64,000 nt of DNA from Advenella kashmirensis W13003 (lineage in GTDB: Bacteria > Pseudomonadota > Gammaproteobacteria > Burkholderiales > Burkholderiaceae_B). The stretch lies in NCBI RefSeq assembly GCF_000506985.1, contig NZ_KI650983.1, positions 124,001-188,000 of the forward strand, written 5' to 3'. Shown here piece by piece: positions 26,851-36,055 of this stretch. Below the pieces are notes generated by a model. That model was not told where the DNA came from. It did not search any database and worked only from the letters and a program-made list of their open reading frames with translations. Position 1 is the stretch's first letter; each line of letters begins with the position of its first letter. Both the position numbers and the translations under genes were made by a program.

Positions 26851-27392
<542 letters not shown>

Positions 27393-27459
27393 ACCATACC
27401 CGGCATTGACTATGCACAGGCAATATCGTATAGTTACGGTATACGATTTAGAGCCTGAA

Positions 27460-27738
27460 ATGATTAAAAGTTTTGTTCACAAAGGGTTAGAAGCGTTTTT
27501 CAAAACTGGCAGTAAAGCTGGCATACGGCCCACACACGCAGCTAAATTACACACATTACTATCCGCTTTGAATCGCGCCGAAAGCGCGCTGGACATGAAT
27601 GCACCTGGTTGGGACTTGCACACCTTGCATGGGGATCTGGCTGGCTATTGGAGCGTCAAAGTAAATGCAAATTGGCGGGTGATCTTTAAGTTTGTTGAGC
27701 AAAACGCCGAAGTTGTTGATTATCTGGACTATCACTAG
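27460..27738 (+). CDS. higB: HigB-family toxin (RelE superfamily mRNA interferase)
   Basis: A 92-residue toxin of the HigB/killer-protein family, which cleaves mRNA at the ribosome. The opening MIKSFVHKGLEAFF, the central LDMNAPGWDLHTLHGDLAGYWSVKVNANWRVIF and the C-terminal VVDYLDYH match the family closely. The ATG at 27460 gives the usual 92 residues; an upstream frame extension to 27406 is rejected. The toxin gene precedes the antitoxin gene by 9 bases, the typical reversed higBA order. It lies inside the tRNA-associated island remnant. Confidence 0.92.
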   Translation: MIKSFVHKGLEAFFKTGSKAGIRPTHAAKLHTLLSALNRAESALDMNAPGWDLHTLHGDLAGYWSVKVNANWRVIFKFVEQNAEVVDYLDYH

Positions 27739-27747
27739 GAGTACATC

Positions 27748-28029
27748 ATGCGTATGCACAATCCCGCACACCCAGGAATCGTATTGCGCGAATATCTGGG
27801 TCAAACAAGTGTCACTGAAGCTGCACAACGGCTCGGAGTAACCCGCGCAGCACTGTCTCGTATCCTGAACGGAAAAGCCGCCATTTCAGCAGATATGGCG
27901 GTGCGCCTTTCAATTCTGCTTGGCACCAGCAGTGGCATGTGGGCAGGTATGCAATCGGACTACGATCTATGGCAGGCAGAACAACTACGCCACGATTTCG
28001 TAGTACCGCTAAACCGAGCTTTGGCATGA
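27748..28029 (+). CDS. higA: HigA-family antitoxin (XRE-type HTH)
   Basis: A 93-residue antitoxin with an XRE helix-turn-helix (TEAAQRLGVTRAALSRILNGKAAIS split around residues 28-50). It neutralises HigB and represses the higBA promoter. An AGGAG site lies 8 bases before the ATG. NPAHPGIVLREYL at the start is typical of the VapI/HigA family. Confidence 0.92.
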   Translation: MRMHNPAHPGIVLREYLGQTSVTEAAQRLGVTRAALSRILNGKAAISADMAVRLSILLGTSSGMWAGMQSDYDLWQAEQLRHDFVVPLNRALA

Positions 28030-29046: not shown

Positions 29047-29571
29047 ATGGAACGACCACCCTGTATCCCGTCCCCGCCATGCGGCGCGCCCCTTCAGACC
29101 ATGCGTGTCGCGTTGCGGGTGAACGGCCTCGAACACCAAATGGATATTGCGCCTTGGGTCACGCTGCTTGACGCTTTGCGCGACAGACTTAACCTCACCG
29201 GTACAAAAAAAGGATGCGATCACGGCCAATGCGGCGCATGCACCGTCCTGGTCAACGGCGTTCGGATCAATTCCTGTCTCACGCTGGCTGTCATGAACGA
29301 CGGCGCAGATATCACGACAGTCGAAGGCCTGGAGACGGACGGAAGTCTTCACCCTCTGCAGGAAGCCTTCGTTAAACACGATGCGTTTCAGTGCGGTTAT
29401 TGCACGTCGGGACAGCTGCTCTCAGCCATGGGGGTGATCGCTGAAGGACATGCAAAAACAAAAAGTGATATTCGCGAGCTGATGAGTGGCAATTTATGCC
29501 GCTGTGGTGCCTATCCCAACATTGTCGCAGCCGTCCACGAAGTACTGCAGGGCAGGGACGATGCCCTATGA
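29047..29571 (+). CDS. PaoA-like [2Fe-2S] subunit of a molybdenum hydroxylase
   Basis: A 174-residue iron-sulfur subunit of the xanthine oxidase family. Plant-type cluster cysteines are in CDHGQCGACTVLVNG with a later INSC, and the second cluster in CGYCTSGQ and LCRCGAYPN. It is closest in arrangement to E. coli PaoA (YagT), the aldehyde oxidoreductase small subunit. PaoA has a Tat signal and is about 229 residues; no signal peptide is seen here, so the enzyme is probably cytoplasmic. The ATG at 29047 has a strong AAGGAG site. Its stop overlaps the next start (ATGA). Confidence 0.88.
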   Translation: MERPPCIPSPPCGAPLQTMRVALRVNGLEHQMDIAPWVTLLDALRDRLNLTGTKKGCDHGQCGACTVLVNGVRINSCLTLAVMNDGADITTVEGLETDGSLHPLQEAFVKHDAFQCGYCTSGQLLSAMGVIAEGHAKTKSDIRELMSGNLCRCGAYPNIVAAVHEVLQGRDDAL

Positions 29572-30584
29572 CACCATTCACTTACATGCAAGCCCGTACC
29601 GTCGAAGAAGCAGTACGGGCAGCAGCGTCGGACAACGAGGCCAGATACATTGCCGGTGGCACGAATCTTCTCGATTTGATGAAGGAAAATGTCGAGCGAC
29701 CATCACATCTGATTGATGTGACCCATCTGCCTTTGAAGACGATCGCCGATACGCCAGACGGGGGATTGAGGATCGGCGCACTAACGACCAACAGTCAGGT
29801 CCAGTACGATGACCGGGTACGCCAGCGCTACCCTCTTCTGGCCAGTGCCATTGCTGCCGGCGCATCACCCCAGTTGCGCAATGCCGCCTCGACGGGAGGC
29901 AACTTGCTGCAGCGCACCCGTTGTTTTTATTTCTATGACACAGGCGTGGCCTGCAACAAACGTGTGCCCGGTTCAGGTTGTAGCGCCATTGGGGGCAAAA
30001 ACCGCGCCCATGCCATTCTCGGGGCCAGTGATCATTGCATTGCCACGCATCCCTCCGACATGTGCGTTGCTCTGGCTGCACTGGATGCAACCGTGCAAGT
30101 AACCGGCCGCGAGGGCAATCGCACCATCGCCGTTGCCGATTTTCATCGTCTGCCTCAGGCGCAGCCGCATATTGATACCACGTTGTTGCCCGGAGAATTG
30201 ATCACCGCAGTGGTCCTGCCTGCGGAAGGTTTCGCGGCACATTACAGTTATCTTAAATTGCGCGACCGATTATCGTACGCCTTCGCATTGGTCTCGGTGG
30301 CCGCAGCATTGCGAATGAAAGAAGGAACCATCACAGAAGCGCGTCTCGCGCTTGGCGGCGTGGCGCATAAACCATGGCGTAATTTATCGGCAGAGAAGTT
30401 CCTGAACGGCAAGAAATCGGATCGCACGGTCTTCACTCAAGCAGCCGATCTGCTGCTGAGCGAGGCCCAGGGACAGGGCGACAATGACTTCAAGATCCCG
30501 CTTGCCCGACGCGCCATCGTACGTGCGCTGGAACAGGCCGCAGCAGGAACACCGCAGTCGCAGATAAACAAACGCATCACGTGA
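29568..30584 (+). CDS. PaoB-like FAD subunit of a molybdenum hydroxylase
   Basis: A 338-residue FAD-binding subunit. The FAD loop YIAGGTNLLDLMK is near residue 25, and AASTGGNLLQRTRC near 107. An insertion with several cysteines (TRC, ACNKR, GSGC, HC, DMC in about 118-165) matches the extra [4Fe-4S] cluster known in PaoB-type subunits, which ordinary xanthine dehydrogenases lack. ATGA overlap with the small subunit and 13 bases before the large subunit. Confidence 0.88.
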   Translation: MTPFTYMQARTVEEAVRAAASDNEARYIAGGTNLLDLMKENVERPSHLIDVTHLPLKTIADTPDGGLRIGALTTNSQVQYDDRVRQRYPLLASAIAAGASPQLRNAASTGGNLLQRTRCFYFYDTGVACNKRVPGSGCSAIGGKNRAHAILGASDHCIATHPSDMCVALAALDATVQVTGREGNRTIAVADFHRLPQAQPHIDTTLLPGELITAVVLPAEGFAAHYSYLKLRDRLSYAFALVSVAAALRMKEGTITEARLALGGVAHKPWRNLSAEKFLNGKKSDRTVFTQAADLLLSEAQGQGDNDFKIPLARRAIVRALEQAAAGTPQSQINKRIT

Positions 30585-30597
30585 GGGAGCATAGCGA

Positions 30598-32910
30598 ATG
30601 AATAAACACACTGACAAAGCCGTCTCCCAACACCGGACCCTGCAAGCATGCCATGTGGGACAGGGTATCGCCCGCGTGGATGGGCGGGCCAAGGTCACAG
30701 GAGCCGCCAAATACTCAGCCGACTTCAATGCACCGGATCTGGTCCACGGATACGTCGTCAACAGCACGATCGCCAGGGGCCGTATCGTCAGCATTGATGC
30801 CGCCGGCGCGCTCGACTTCCCCGGTGTCATTGCCGTTTTCACGCATGAAAACCGGCCTGATCTGGCCTGGTTCCACCGCGACCATAAGGACAAAGACACG
30901 CCGACTGCACATTTTCGCCCATTGGCCGACGCAGTCATCAGATACAGCGGCCAGCCGATCGCCCTCGTGGTCGCTCAAGACGCCGAGACCGCGCGCTATG
31001 CGTCCACGCTCCTGCACGTGCAATACGAGATGGAACGTCACCAGACGAATCTGTCGGCGTTGTGTGACGATCCCGATCTGTCCCTGGATCAAAAGATGAT
31101 TGTAAAAAAAACACCAAAGCCGCGCGGCGATGCGCCCCATGCCTTCGCCGGGGCGTCGATTCGCAATTGCACGCAATACCGTTTCCCGATTGAACATCAC
31201 AACCCGATGGCACCGCACGCATCCACGGTCCTGTGGCATAGCAACGGCAAAATAACGGTACATGACAAGACACAAGGCTCCAGGCAGACACATGATTATA
31301 TCTGCGAGGCTTTTGAATTGGACAAGGCCGATGTGCAGGTGGTGTCGCCCTATGTGGGCGGCGCCTTTGGACTGGCGATACGTCCTCAATATCAGCTTTT
31401 CCTGGCCGTCATGGCAGCGCGCGAGCTCAGGCTTTCGGTTCGTGTCGTGCTCTCCCGCGAGCAGATGTTTACGCTTGGTTATCGACCGGAAGCACTGCAG
31501 ACGATTTCGCTGGCTGCTGAGTCAAACGGTGCATTGAACGCCGTTATGCACGACGCCATTGGCAATACGTCGCAACTCGAAGACTTCACCGAGTCCACCG
31601 TTAAATGGAGCGGTCTGCTCTATCAGTGCCCCAACGTGAAGCTGAACTACCGGCTCGCCCGCCTGGACCTTTATACACCGACAGACATGCGCGCACCCGG
31701 CGCCGCCAGCGGCGTGAACGCGCTGGAGCAGGCAATAGACGAAATGGCCTATCTGCTTGATATGGATCCCCTGCAATTTCGGCTGAAGAACTATGCCGAA
31801 TGTGATCAAATTGAAAGCAGGGACTTTACCAGCAAGGAATTGAGAGCTTGCTATGCGCAAGGCGCAGAACGGTTCGGCTGGGCACGACGCCTGCACGCAC
31901 CGCGCTCGATGCGCGAGGGGCGCGAACTCATTGGCTGGGGACTTGCCACCGGCGTCTGGGAAGCGTTCCAGCAGAAAGCCAGCGCACGTGCAACGCTGTC
32001 GCCCGACGGCCACCTCGACATCGCCACGGCCGCCGCCGATATCGGCACGGGAACGTACACTATTCTGACCCAGATTGCTGCCGATACGCTGGGGCTGCCT
32101 TTGTCGAGTGTGACGACCACCCTTGGCGACTCGTCCCTGCCGTGGGCCCCGGTCGAAGGCGGCTCATCGGGCGCGGCGTCTTTCGGCTCTGCCGTCAAAG
32201 CAGCCTGCGAAGCGCTCAAAAAACGCATTGCGAAGCACGCCATCGCCATGTCCGGCCCTGCTTTCGGACACGTGACCGAAGACGATCTTGTGTTCACCGG
32301 TGGTCAAATTTGCCTGAAAAGCGATCCCGACAAGCGCGTACATCTTAAGGAAGTCATTAAACGCATCAACATCAATCAGTTGACCGTCGACTGCTCTGCC
32401 GAACCAGACGCGGCAAGTAAAAAGCGATATTCACGCAATGCACATTCTGCGGTCTTTGTCGAAGTCCGGGTGGATGAGGAGCTCGGACAAGTCCGCGTCA
32501 CCCGCGTAGTCAATGCCGTCGCGGCCGGCAGAATCCTCAATCCGAAAACGGCGGCAAACCAGATACTCGGAGGCATCGTATGGGGCATCAGCAAGGCATT
32601 GTATGAGGAAGGCATACTGGACCATCGTATCGGGCGATTCATGAATCATAATTTCGCCGACTATCACATTGCGACAAGTGCAGACATTGATGATCTCGAA
32701 GTCATATTCGTAGAAGAACATGACAGCGAAGTGAACCCGCTGGGGATCAAGGGCGTTGGAGAGATTGGCATTGTGGGTACGACAGCCGCTGTGGCCAATG
32801 CGATCTTTCATGCGACCGGCAAACGGATTTACGCATTACCGATTACAATGGATAAGATCCTGAGCAACGCGAAAGCGCAACAGGAATCAAATAACATTGG
32901 AAAAAAGTAG
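30598..32910 (+). CDS. PaoC-like molybdenum cofactor subunit
   Basis: A 770-residue catalytic subunit of the xanthine oxidase/aldehyde oxidoreductase family. The N-terminal small domain begins with GIARVDGRAKVTGAAKYSAD. Mo-cofactor blocks include YVGGAFGLAIRPQ near 250, GGSSGAASFGSAV near 520 and the catalytic Glu in IKGVGEIGIVG near residue 722. A PaoC-like aldehyde oxidising role is the best guess; the substrate is not readable. No paoD-type cofactor-insertion chaperone follows; instead a QueD-like gene starts 5 bases later. Confidence 0.88.
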   Translation: MNKHTDKAVSQHRTLQACHVGQGIARVDGRAKVTGAAKYSADFNAPDLVHGYVVNSTIARGRIVSIDAAGALDFPGVIAVFTHENRPDLAWFHRDHKDKDTPTAHFRPLADAVIRYSGQPIALVVAQDAETARYASTLLHVQYEMERHQTNLSALCDDPDLSLDQKMIVKKTPKPRGDAPHAFAGASIRNCTQYRFPIEHHNPMAPHASTVLWHSNGKITVHDKTQGSRQTHDYICEAFELDKADVQVVSPYVGGAFGLAIRPQYQLFLAVMAARELRLSVRVVLSREQMFTLGYRPEALQTISLAAESNGALNAVMHDAIGNTSQLEDFTESTVKWSGLLYQCPNVKLNYRLARLDLYTPTDMRAPGAASGVNALEQAIDEMAYLLDMDPLQFRLKNYAECDQIESRDFTSKELRACYAQGAERFGWARRLHAPRSMREGRELIGWGLATGVWEAFQQKASARATLSPDGHLDIATAAADIGTGTYTILTQIAADTLGLPLSSVTTTLGDSSLPWAPVEGGSSGAASFGSAVKAACEALKKRIAKHAIAMSGPAFGHVTEDDLVFTGGQICLKSDPDKRVHLKEVIKRININQLTVDCSAEPDAASKKRYSRNAHSAVFVEVRVDEELGQVRVTRVVNAVAAGRILNPKTAANQILGGIVWGISKALYEEGILDHRIGRFMNHNFADYHIATSADIDDLEVIFVEEHDSEVNPLGIKGVGEIGIVGTTAAVANAIFHATGKRIYALPITMDKILSNAKAQQESNNIGKK

Positions 32911-32915
32911 CACAG

Positions 32916-34010
32916 ATGAAATCGTACCCTCCTCTTTTCAGAGCGACCTCTCGGTTTGAGGCAGCCAGGCAATTGGACTTTCCCGGCTTGAACCCTTCCC
33001 TGGGTGCCTTGCATGGTCATGGGTTTATTGTGTCGGTTCTGGCCGATTTGCCTGAAGACGCAGGCGGCTATCCTGGCGGCCAGGCTTTGCAGCTGCAGCA
33101 ATCCGTGCAAGATCATGCTTCCACTTTGGACTACGGTTTTCTGAACGATACGATAGCGGATCCGACCGATGCAAATATCGGCCGGTGGATGCACGATAAG
33201 CTGGCGCAGTTGAATGTGAAGCGCATCCTGGTACAAAGCACGCCTGCAAGTGGGGTGGAAATCGACGCAGATAAAACGGTTTTTCTCTGGCGGAAATACC
33301 GCTTCCATGCCGCCCATCAACTGCCGAACGTACCCGCCGGCCATAAGTGCGGCCGCATGCATGGCCATGGTTTTCAGGTCGTTCTCCATGCGCAGGAACA
33401 AGACCACCAGGGCGTCAGACTGACACACGACGATCTGGATACGTGCTGGGCTCCGCTGGCAAGTCAGCTTGATTATCACTGCCTCAATGACATTCCAGGC
33501 CTCTCGAACCCCACAAGCGAGATCCTCTCTTCCTGGATTTGGGACAAGTTGTCCCCTGCTCTACCGCAATTGAAATGGGTGATGGTTTACGAGACAGCCA
33601 GCTGCGGTTCAATTTTTGACGGTAAACAGTACCGGATATGGAAGGACACCACAATCGACAGCGCCGTTCAATTTCAATGCGCGCCTGCCGGCGACCCAAG
33701 GGCTGCCATCCATGGCGATACCTATACCGTCCGATTGATGTTGTCGGCGCCACTGGACAGCAAAATGGGCTGGACTATTGATTTTGGCGACGTCAAAACA
33801 CTGTTTGATCCCATCTTTAAATCGCTGGATCACCAGGCACTCTATGAAAGAGTCGAATTCAGGGAAGGCGATACCACATCAATTGGCAATTACGTCCTTC
33901 TTCAAATGAAAGCAGAATGTCCACACATAACCGGTGTACAAGTAATGGGTTCGGACGGGGTTGGTACAATACTTGATAGCAACTCACTGGGACCCGGTCT
34001 GCCCGACTGA
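32916..34010 (+). CDS. Three-domain QueD-like protein (triplicated 6-pyruvoyl-tetrahydropterin-synthase fold)
   Basis: 364 residues built from three tandem PTPS/QueD domains (about 1-122, 123-238, 239-355); normal QueD is about 120 residues. Domain 2 has the zinc ligands H134, H149 and H151, the catalytic C145 in HKCGRMHGHGF and the pterin Glu E226 in VYETASCG, but Tyr replaces the triad His (LDYH). Domain 3 has lost the zinc ligands and Cys but keeps D305-H306 (SLDHQALY). Domain 1 has H33 and H35 only. In this family the triad is formed between subunits, so domains 2 and 3 may make one composite site. Queuosine/deazapurine synthesis is suggested by queE starting one base after its stop; the upstream Pao-like operon is 5 bases away. 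Confidence 0.85.
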   Translation: MKSYPPLFRATSRFEAARQLDFPGLNPSLGALHGHGFIVSVLADLPEDAGGYPGGQALQLQQSVQDHASTLDYGFLNDTIADPTDANIGRWMHDKLAQLNVKRILVQSTPASGVEIDADKTVFLWRKYRFHAAHQLPNVPAGHKCGRMHGHGFQVVLHAQEQDHQGVRLTHDDLDTCWAPLASQLDYHCLNDIPGLSNPTSEILSSWIWDKLSPALPQLKWVMVYETASCGSIFDGKQYRIWKDTTIDSAVQFQCAPAGDPRAAIHGDTYTVRLMLSAPLDSKMGWTIDFGDVKTLFDPIFKSLDHQALYERVEFREGDTTSIGNYVLLQMKAECPHITGVQVMGSDGVGTILDSNSLGPGLPD

Positions 34011-34011
34011 T

Positions 34012-34653
34012 ATGACATACTCGATAAAAGAAATTTTCTACACCTTGCAAGGCGAAGGGATTCAGGCTGGCATGCCCGCGGTATTCTGTCGCGTTGCCGG
34101 ATGCAATTTATGGTCGGGCCGGGAATCGGATCGGTCCACTGCAATCTGTCAGTTTTGCGATACAGATTTTGTCGGCACCGACGGCACGTTCGGCGGCAAA
34201 TTCAGGACTGCCGAGGCCCTGGCGGACGCAATAGAAGCGCAATGGCCAAAACACGATGACACATCGCGGCTGGTGGTGGTCACAGGCGGAGAGCCCCTTC
34301 TGCAACTTGACGGGGCACTTATTGACGCCCTGCACGACCGAAAATTCAGGATTGCCGTTGAAACCAACGGCACAGTCGCAGCGCCGCCCGGTATTGACTG
34401 GATTTGTGTCAGCCCGAAACAGGGTGCGCCCCTTGTTCAGACAACAGGCAATGAACTCAAGCTTGTTTTTCCGCAGGAACAATTACGCCCGGAAAGCCTG
34501 GACAGATCGATTCTTCGATTTGATCATTATTTGCTGCAGCCGATGGATGGGCCGCTTTTGAACGACAATACGCAGGCTGCGATCCGTTATTGCCAGGACA
34601 ATCCGCAATGGCGACTATCTGTGCAAACCCACAAAATAATCGGGATACGCTGA
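34012..34653 (+). CDS. queE: 7-carboxy-7-deazaguanine synthase QueE
   Basis: A 213-residue radical SAM enzyme converting carboxytetrahydropterin to 7-carboxy-7-deazaguanine for queuosine. The cluster motif is C31-X14-C46-X2-C49, the variant known from Burkholderia QueE rather than CX3CX2C. IFYTLQGEG near residue 8, the VVTGGEPLLQ block near 90 and VETNGT near 119 are family marks. It begins one base after the QueD-like stop, so the two steps are coupled. queC and queF are not in the window. Confidence 0.94.
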   Translation: MTYSIKEIFYTLQGEGIQAGMPAVFCRVAGCNLWSGRESDRSTAICQFCDTDFVGTDGTFGGKFRTAEALADAIEAQWPKHDDTSRLVVVTGGEPLLQLDGALIDALHDRKFRIAVETNGTVAAPPGIDWICVSPKQGAPLVQTTGNELKLVFPQEQLRPESLDRSILRFDHYLLQPMDGPLLNDNTQAAIRYCQDNPQWRLSVQTHKIIGIR

Positions 34654-35116: not shown

Positions 35117-36055
35117 CTACCAGGCCAGGTTATAGCCCGCAGCAAGGCCGACACCACCCGCGGTATCCCAGGACGTGTTCACCCGCAGATGGCTGTTTTT
35201 GCCCGTTCTGAACGCCATGCCGGAAGCGAGCGCCATTTGGCCGCCATAGGAGCCCATGGACACCCCAAACGCAGTATTAGCGCCGGCTGGCGGCGGGGTC
35301 AGGGTTGTCATTGCCATTGCGCCTGAAATACCCCCGAGCGCCCGTTTGCGATATCTCTTGATTTGCGACTGCACTTGATCAATCCGCCTGTCGGTATACT
35401 GACGTGACCGGGTCACAGCACTGTTTTCAGCCTGCTGAGTACGCATTTCGGTAAAGTTGTTGGCGCCGGCAAGAACGGCGCGACCGACGTTTTCGGTGTA
35501 ATAATCCAGGTCGTCGCTGCGGGTTTTGTCCGTATACGCCCTGGCCAGCTCAAGTACCTTTATATCGGCCGCATCGCTATGCGCAGCGGCTGCTGCAACC
35601 GCTTCGGCTTTTGCCTTTGCCTGGGCCGGCCCGATCAGATTGACAAGGTCATGTCTGACATTGTCGGTATAGGCCTGTGCGGCTTTCATTTGCCGGACAG
35701 TGACGGCCTCGTCATCTTTTGCCCCATCCTTCAGGCCAGACAACTTGCGGGACCCGAAATTCACGTCACCTGCCGTGGTTGAACGGGAACCGGTTCCGAT
35801 GGCAATCCCACCGTTGGCGGCGTAGGCTTCATCCAGTCCGAAATGCCCGCTCTTGGCCCCGATGGCGATACTGGAGGTGCCGTGGGCCCGGGCATCCCAG
35901 CCAATCGCAATGCCGCTATGTGTTGCCACGGCCCCCAGACCCACGTCGACAGACACCGGCTCGGACGGTTCTGCCAGCGCCTGTGAACCACACACTGTGA
36001 ATGAACTTAACACCAGCAGCGTGGCGCGCCGGTATGTTTTCCCTTGTCTACACAT
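35117..36055 (-). CDS. Short YadA-like trimeric autotransporter adhesin
   Basis: A 312-residue complete trimeric autotransporter. A signal peptide (about 1-28, ending SQALA) is followed by a short head with two or three YadA-type repeats (GIAIGWDARA, SSIAIGAKS, GGIAIGTGS). Then come a neck-like segment (NFGSRKLSGLKDG), an Ala/Lys/Gln-rich coiled coil (about 120-235) and the C-terminal membrane anchor (ALGGISGAMAMTTL ... AAGYNLAW, about 240-312). Such anchors insert in the outer membrane as a trimer. It is very short for the family, with almost no stalk, but no frameshift is visible. Confidence 0.87.
   Translation of the reverse strand: MCRQGKTYRRATLLVLSSFTVCGSQALAEPSEPVSVDVGLGAVATHSGIAIGWDARAHGTSSIAIGAKSGHFGLDEAYAANGGIAIGTGSRSTTAGDVNFGSRKLSGLKDGAKDDEAVTVRQMKAAQAYTDNVRHDLVNLIGPAQAKAKAEAVAAAAAHSDAADIKVLELARAYTDKTRSDDLDYYTENVGRAVLAGANNFTEMRTQQAENSAVTRSRQYTDRRIDQVQSQIKRYRKRALGGISGAMAMTTLTPPPAGANTAFGVSMGSYGGQMALASGMAFRTGKNSHLRVNTSWDTAGGVGLAAGYNLAW

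Follow-up and report, generated by a model that had tools for sequence, protein, structure and literature searches.

A family-wide three-domain variant of QueD with a predicted composite active site in a single chain

Results

A trimodular queD gene next to queE in Advenella kashmirensis W13003

The window analysed here, the whole stretch of 64,000 nucleotides from the Advenella kashmirensis W13003 genome, carries a trimodular queD gene at 32916-34010 on the forward strand, which runs from ATG to TGA in the list of open reading frames and comprises 364 codons. The ATG of the following gene (34012..34653, +) lies one base after the queD stop codon. The initial annotation had named this gene queE, and its match to TIGR04508 confirmed the name; the product is of the Cx14CxxC type. 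Upstream, the genes of a molybdenum hydroxylase, whose three subunits Pfam assigns as Fe-S, FAD and Mo, occupy 29047-32910, and since they stop 5 bases before queD, queD and queE may be co-transcribed with them. In the closest relative by identity within the order, class and phylum set (L013, see below), the upstream gene is unrelated and on the opposite strand. Farther upstream, the region 26851-28029 holds a tRNA-Met gene and then two small genes (27406-27738 and 27748-28029), which we take to be a toxin-antitoxin pair of the HigB/HigA type. On the other side of the locus, an ORF of 312 aa on the reverse strand (35117-36055) presumably encodes a short trimeric autotransporter of the YadA type.

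Across the entire 4.85 Mb genome, which is rated 100% complete, a PTPS search gave two matches, both within the trimodular queD gene. A second, ordinary queD gene, which had been named beforehand as an observation that would speak against an active trimodular protein, was thus not found. The same genome also encodes folE, queC, queF, tgt and queA, with tgt and queA adjoining each other. Across 47 loci of the family longer than 3.3 kb, tblastn placed queE or queC beside the trimodular gene in 40, and neither was found beside it in the remaining 7.

Catalytic residues are divided between domains 2 and 3

Pfam PTPS matched three stretches of the 364-aa protein (whole-protein E 1.4e-42, best stretch residues 125-235) and was its sole Pfam match, the QueF domain giving none. 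The NCBIfam QueD model TIGR03367 matched two stretches with 126.6 bits, above its curated cut-off of 89.25, and E. coli QueD aligned to residues 123-236 in a sequence search of the PDB (E 7.8e-34). The Pfam and TIGR03367 matches bear out the earlier description of three tandem PTPS/QueD domains in 364 residues. An AlphaFold2 monomer, predicted with 79 aligned family members including the window protein, reached a pLDDT of 95.0 and a pTM of 0.92, and its best Foldseek match was E. coli QueD (4ntn_B), which aligned to a single domain at 50% identity with a target TM-score of 0.90 and an rmsd of 2.5.

Domain 2 (about residues 121-237; 33276..33626, +) contains the full set of three zinc His, catalytic Cys and pterin Glu. 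These are H134 as the first zinc ligand (33315..33317, +), C145 as the catalytic Cys of CGRMHGH (33348..33350, +), H149-G150-H151 with zinc ligands two and three (33360..33368, +), and E226 (33591..33593, +), the counterpart of the Glu that anchors the pterin in PTPS. The CxxxHGH signature of QueD is present in this domain (C145-GRM-HGH) and absent from domains 1 and 3. At the Asp-His position, domain 2 carries the decayed pair D186-Y187 (33471..33476, +), with Tyr for the triad His. The Asp-His pair of the triad is found in domain 3 (about residues 239-354; 33630..33977, +) at D305-H306 (33828..33833, +), the proposed partner of C145. The residues that the initial annotation had listed for domains 2 and 3 all lie at the positions it gave.

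Domain 3 had been described as having lost its zinc site and Cys while keeping the Asp-His pair. This stood for the first zinc His and the Cys at the CxxxHGH place, both gone, and for D305-H306; it did not stand for Cys in general, because the domain has C255, 11 residues before H266 and off the CxxxHGH place. The window protein also has D268 in place of the second His of HxH, a His kept in 130 of the 137 three-domain proteins described below. Domain 1 (about residues 5-118 by the AlphaFold2 secondary structure; 32928..33269, +) retains the HGH with H33 and H35. In this domain R18 replaces the first zinc His, the CxxxHGH place is without a Cys, and the Asp-His position reads D72-Y73. Judged from its sequence, the window protein is a QueD variant with predicted activity and not an ordinary single-domain QueD, since it has three domains, a Cys in domain 2 together with a D-Y pair, and an intact pair in domain 3.

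Collection of three-domain relatives

We scanned 399 genomes from the order, of which 64 matched at E 1e-30 or better. After setting aside G046 and G359 (one-domain), G350 (gene in two frames) and G410 (broken by contig ends), 60 genomes with a three-domain gene in one frame were left, the window's genome among them; L005 from a separate search and a second copy in G136 brought these to 62 proteins. A scan of 369 genomes from the class gave 17 more proteins, and 398 genomes from the phylum gave 11 more three-domain genes, of which 8 were used (G842, G924 and G806 were full-length but left out), making 87 proteins with the window protein included. A further scan of named genomes was run with an alignment as the query, a single-protein query having matched no relative. 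Its best 80 loci comprised 58 three-domain, 1 partial and 21 single-domain loci; eight of the 58 were identical over the core to earlier proteins, and the other 50 were added. The final collection therefore held 137 three-domain proteins, all distinct, in 121 clusters at 90% identity. Rows left out were L003 (the window again), L001 and L002 (the window's domains), L012 (part of L006), L168 (partial), L008-L011 and L073 (single domain, with L008 and L009 reused as controls), L072 (a repeat of L038), L106 and L107 (repeats), L069 (two separate frames), L070 (a one-domain match in a 343-aa frame), and L074 and L075 (broken by contig ends). L069, from G350 C61, is a three-domain QueD spread over two frames, one of 209 aa and one of 167 aa. 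Neither match covers the middle region, and L069 is maybe a decaying or misassembled copy.

The 137 proteins come from Beta- and Gammaproteobacteria and from Magnetococcales. Named holders include Rubrivivax, Paucibacter, Ramlibacter, Roseateles, Pelomonas, Chromobacterium, Aquitalea and Vogesella, and further Thiocystis, Halochromatium, Lamprocystis, Thiothrix, Methylolobus and two Magnetococcales.

The Asp-His pair is invariant in domain 3 and variable in domains 1 and 2

H134, C145, H149, H151 and E226 of domain 2 together with D305-H306 of domain 3 were present in 87 of 87 proteins of the first set and in 50 of 50 of the named-genome set, the latter having been picked by domain 2 peptide patterns, so that selection contributes to its count of Cys/HGH in domain 2 and not to its domain 3 count. 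The complementary loss proposed from the single sequence, with zinc ligands, Cys and Glu kept in domain 2 and Asp-His in domain 3, was thereby recovered in 137/137 proteins, the window protein among them. A chance arrangement or an assembly artefact was ruled out, the layout being common to 137 distinct proteins.

The Asp-His pair was confined to domain 3 in 99 of the 137; another 30 had it in domain 2 as well and 8 in domain 1 as well, and no protein had it in all three domains. When each 90%-identity cluster was counted once, the pair was present in domain 3 in 121/121, in domain 2 in 29 and in domain 1 in 6. The first zinc His was found in 0/137 in domain 1 and in 0/137 in domain 3. A Cys at the CxxxHGH place was seen in domain 2 in all 137 proteins, in domain 1 in 4 and in domain 3 in 0, while ten of the 137, including the window protein (C255), had a Cys elsewhere in that stretch of domain 3. 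Of the four proteins with a residual Cys in domain 1, one kept an intact domain 2 pair, leaving a coupling between the two unsupported.

The mean column entropy was lowest, and conservation thus highest, in domain 2 (1.48 bits), followed by domain 3 (1.66 bits) and domain 1 (2.09 bits). The columns of the pair itself had entropies of 1.68 and 2.13 bits in domain 2 and of 0 in domain 3. Many members had L, G, Q, E, K, N or other residues in place of the domain 2 pair; the Tyr noted initially for the triad His of domain 2 holds for the window protein and some relatives, and elsewhere the position reads HH, NH, HL, HQ, HG, NY and more. A tree from which the pair columns had been omitted required a minimum of 57 state changes for the domain 2 pair (18 of them between intact and not intact), 31 for the domain 1 pair and 0 for the domain 3 pair. 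Because of this difference, the alignment indicates that the Asp-His motif is frozen in domain 3 and free in domains 1 and 2, and domain 3 has no site of its own for the motif to serve.

As controls we used 36 single-domain proteins, namely L008, L009, 13 of the 42 one-domain matches of the class scan and 21 rows of the named-genome scan. Cys and Asp-His stood in one domain in 35 of these 36 (for the named-genome controls the Cys was part of the selection and the Asp-His was not), and the exception was L104, with Glu for Asp. The contrast between single-domain and three-domain proteins gave a Fisher p of 1.7e-17 with relatedness ignored. L104 is a single-domain QueD-like protein that has Arg for the first zinc His and Glu-His for Asp-His.

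A single old triplication and a patchy spread

The domains of 28 three-domain proteins were placed in one tree with 14 single-domain QueDs, built from only 119 columns. Domains 1, 2 and 3 each fell on one side of a branch (SH-aLRT 100, 97 and 99), as did the single-domain proteins (82). Since each domain forms one group, the simplest history suggested by the sequences is a single old triplication before the spread of the family, and the gene triplication postulated at the outset is supported. A recent fusion confined to W13003 was ruled out by the same tree. The spread, which may reflect loss or transfer, is patchy: of the 399 genomes from the order, 335 gave nothing at E 1e-30, and nine other genomes of the window's genus had no match at E 1e-3. 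A mobile origin was also rejected, with no plasmid or phage record covering 80% of the 364-aa protein.

We rescanned 60 trimodular genomes for extra PTPS genes. Among the matches listed, G050 and G035 had one each outside the trimodular gene (L201 and L202) and G136 had a second trimodular gene; further, weaker matches may exist. L201 combines CxxxHGH and DH in one domain. L202 (351-887) encodes a PTPS-domain protein that lacks HGH and does not resemble QueD, alongside the trimodular QueD of the same genome.

Discussion

A composite site in one chain

The title of a 1995 paper by Burgisser et al. reportedly calls the PTPS triad intersubunit. PTPS is described in PMC7546909 as a dimer of trimers with the sites buried between monomers. 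For trimodular QueD, we consider it very probable that the protein is a one-chain pseudo-trimer derived from triplication, with one composite site built by domains 2 and 3, where the contact between these domains, the site count, the oligomeric state and the enzymatic activity are predictions. Each site of the ordinary enzyme draws zinc, Cys and Glu from one subunit, while the adjacent subunit contributes Asp-His. Tandem triplication of the gene for QueD (6-carboxytetrahydropterin synthase) would have put one chain in place of the ring of three identical subunits, and this fused chain would have retained a single site, made of H134/H149/H151, C145 and E226 of domain 2 and D305-H306 of domain 3, with domain 1 and the unused half-sites drifting as scaffold. 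The product would be 6-carboxytetrahydropterin, for queE and queuosine, and the protein would probably form a head-to-head dimer with two sites, compared with six in the QueD hexamer.

Such a chain would pair the Cys of domain n with the Asp-His of domain n+1. The domain 2 pair would then serve the dead site of domain 1 and the domain 1 pair the dead site of domain 3, and for this reason both would be free to change. The counts point in the same direction: because the Cys common to all members is that of domain 2 and domain 1 lacks the pair in 129 of 137, only domain 3 could complete the triad in all 137 proteins, which argues against a pairing of domain 2 with domain 1 and for the n to n+1 rule. 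Given that an intact domain 2 pair persists in 30/137, a second partial site is possible in those members.

A further observation counts against this explanation. H33 and H35 of domain 1 were present in 137/137 proteins, which plain scaffold drift does not predict, and the first ligand position of this domain was R in 96 and C in 32. The initial statement that domain 1 keeps two His and little else is right as to their presence; being invariant, the two His are no decaying remnants. From the residues at hand, a C-H-H arrangement in domain 1 could bind metal and an R-H-H arrangement probably does not, and it is possible that H33/H35 have a structural role or belong to a second ligand site. In a fuller form of the latter idea, an obligate homo-oligomer was converted a single time, across Beta- and Gammaproteobacteria and Magnetococcales, into a one-chain pseudo-trimer with one site, and domain 1 took on a new task: H33/H35 with R18 or C18 would bind a ligand or metal at a second site without catalysis, serving either to regulate the enzyme or as a docking point for QueE or QueC. 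This seems to us rather unlikely.

Alternatively, domain 2 might pair with the domain 3 of a second chain within a larger oligomer, which would place the composite site between chains. Conservation shows which domains pair and not whether they do so within one chain, and to that extent suits this arrangement equally; however, three tandem copies of the subunit of a trimeric ring fit one closed ring, and the AlphaFold2 monomer was confident overall, so we regard trans pairing as improbable. We give still less credit to the proposal that the protein has left QueD chemistry and makes another pterin product, or is a binding protein, outside queuosine synthesis. The absence of zinc ligand and Cys from two of the three sites would suit it, but no other PTPS gene was found in its genome, which also encodes folE, queE, queC, queF, tgt and queA; queE or queC adjoins the gene at most loci of the family; and the CxxxHGH motif, given for QueD in PMC5041015, is present. 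That catalysis is the work of domain 2 by itself, with the triad His substituted by Y187 or some other residue and domains 1 and 3 as scaffold only, is hardly credible: all remaining catalytic residues lie in this domain, and the Pfam, TIGR03367 and PDB matches are best there, yet its own pair is replaced in many members, and D305-H306 is invariant despite the overall variability of domain 3 and its lack of the first zinc His.

Comparison with known systems

No description of a three-domain QueD was found in the literature searched, which covered titles and abstracts, with subscription papers mostly outside its coverage. If the composite-site reading is right, the family would provide a natural case of a homotrimeric ring turned into one asymmetric chain, in which the fate of each half-site can be read in 137 sequences. 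From the pattern of decay by itself one could then predict the domain that completes each site and the sense in which the pairing runs around the ring. The family also raises the question of why a chain three times longer is kept with, on the composite-site reading, a third of the sites. For annotation there is a warning: a single 'QueD' match may stand for three domains, two of them without zinc ligand and, except for domain 1 in 4/137, without Cys.

Urate oxidase likewise has more than one T-fold per chain, with two domains and without zinc or a triad of this kind; its Foldseek matches to the window protein were weak (E 6.2e-5 and above). Single-domain QueD/PTPS-I (E. coli QueD, PDB 4ntk, 4ntm, 4ntn and 3qn0) resembles domain 2 in sequence, fold, catalytic residues and CxxxHGH. 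It has one domain with all residues in each copy, whereas the family of the window protein has three domains and one complete set divided over two of them.

A clear precedent is bimodular QueF, an enzyme of the same pathway and the same T-fold superfamily as QueD. The W13003 genome itself encodes a QueF of bimodular length (280 aa), whose Cys we presume to lie in the second half. Its first half contains the QueF motif as given in PMC5372742. According to that paper, bimodular QueF of the V. cholerae and E. coli type consists of tandem T-folds with an interdomain site, one domain carrying the motif and the other Cys/Glu, and the central tunnel is absent from V. cholerae QueF (PMC5372742). The sequences support well a view of trimodular QueD as a family-wide QueD variant, with bimodular QueF as its precedent. 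Both have tandem T-folds in one chain with the functional residues divided between domains, and both stand in the same pathway, although QueF has two modules where trimodular QueD has three and carries out other chemistry.
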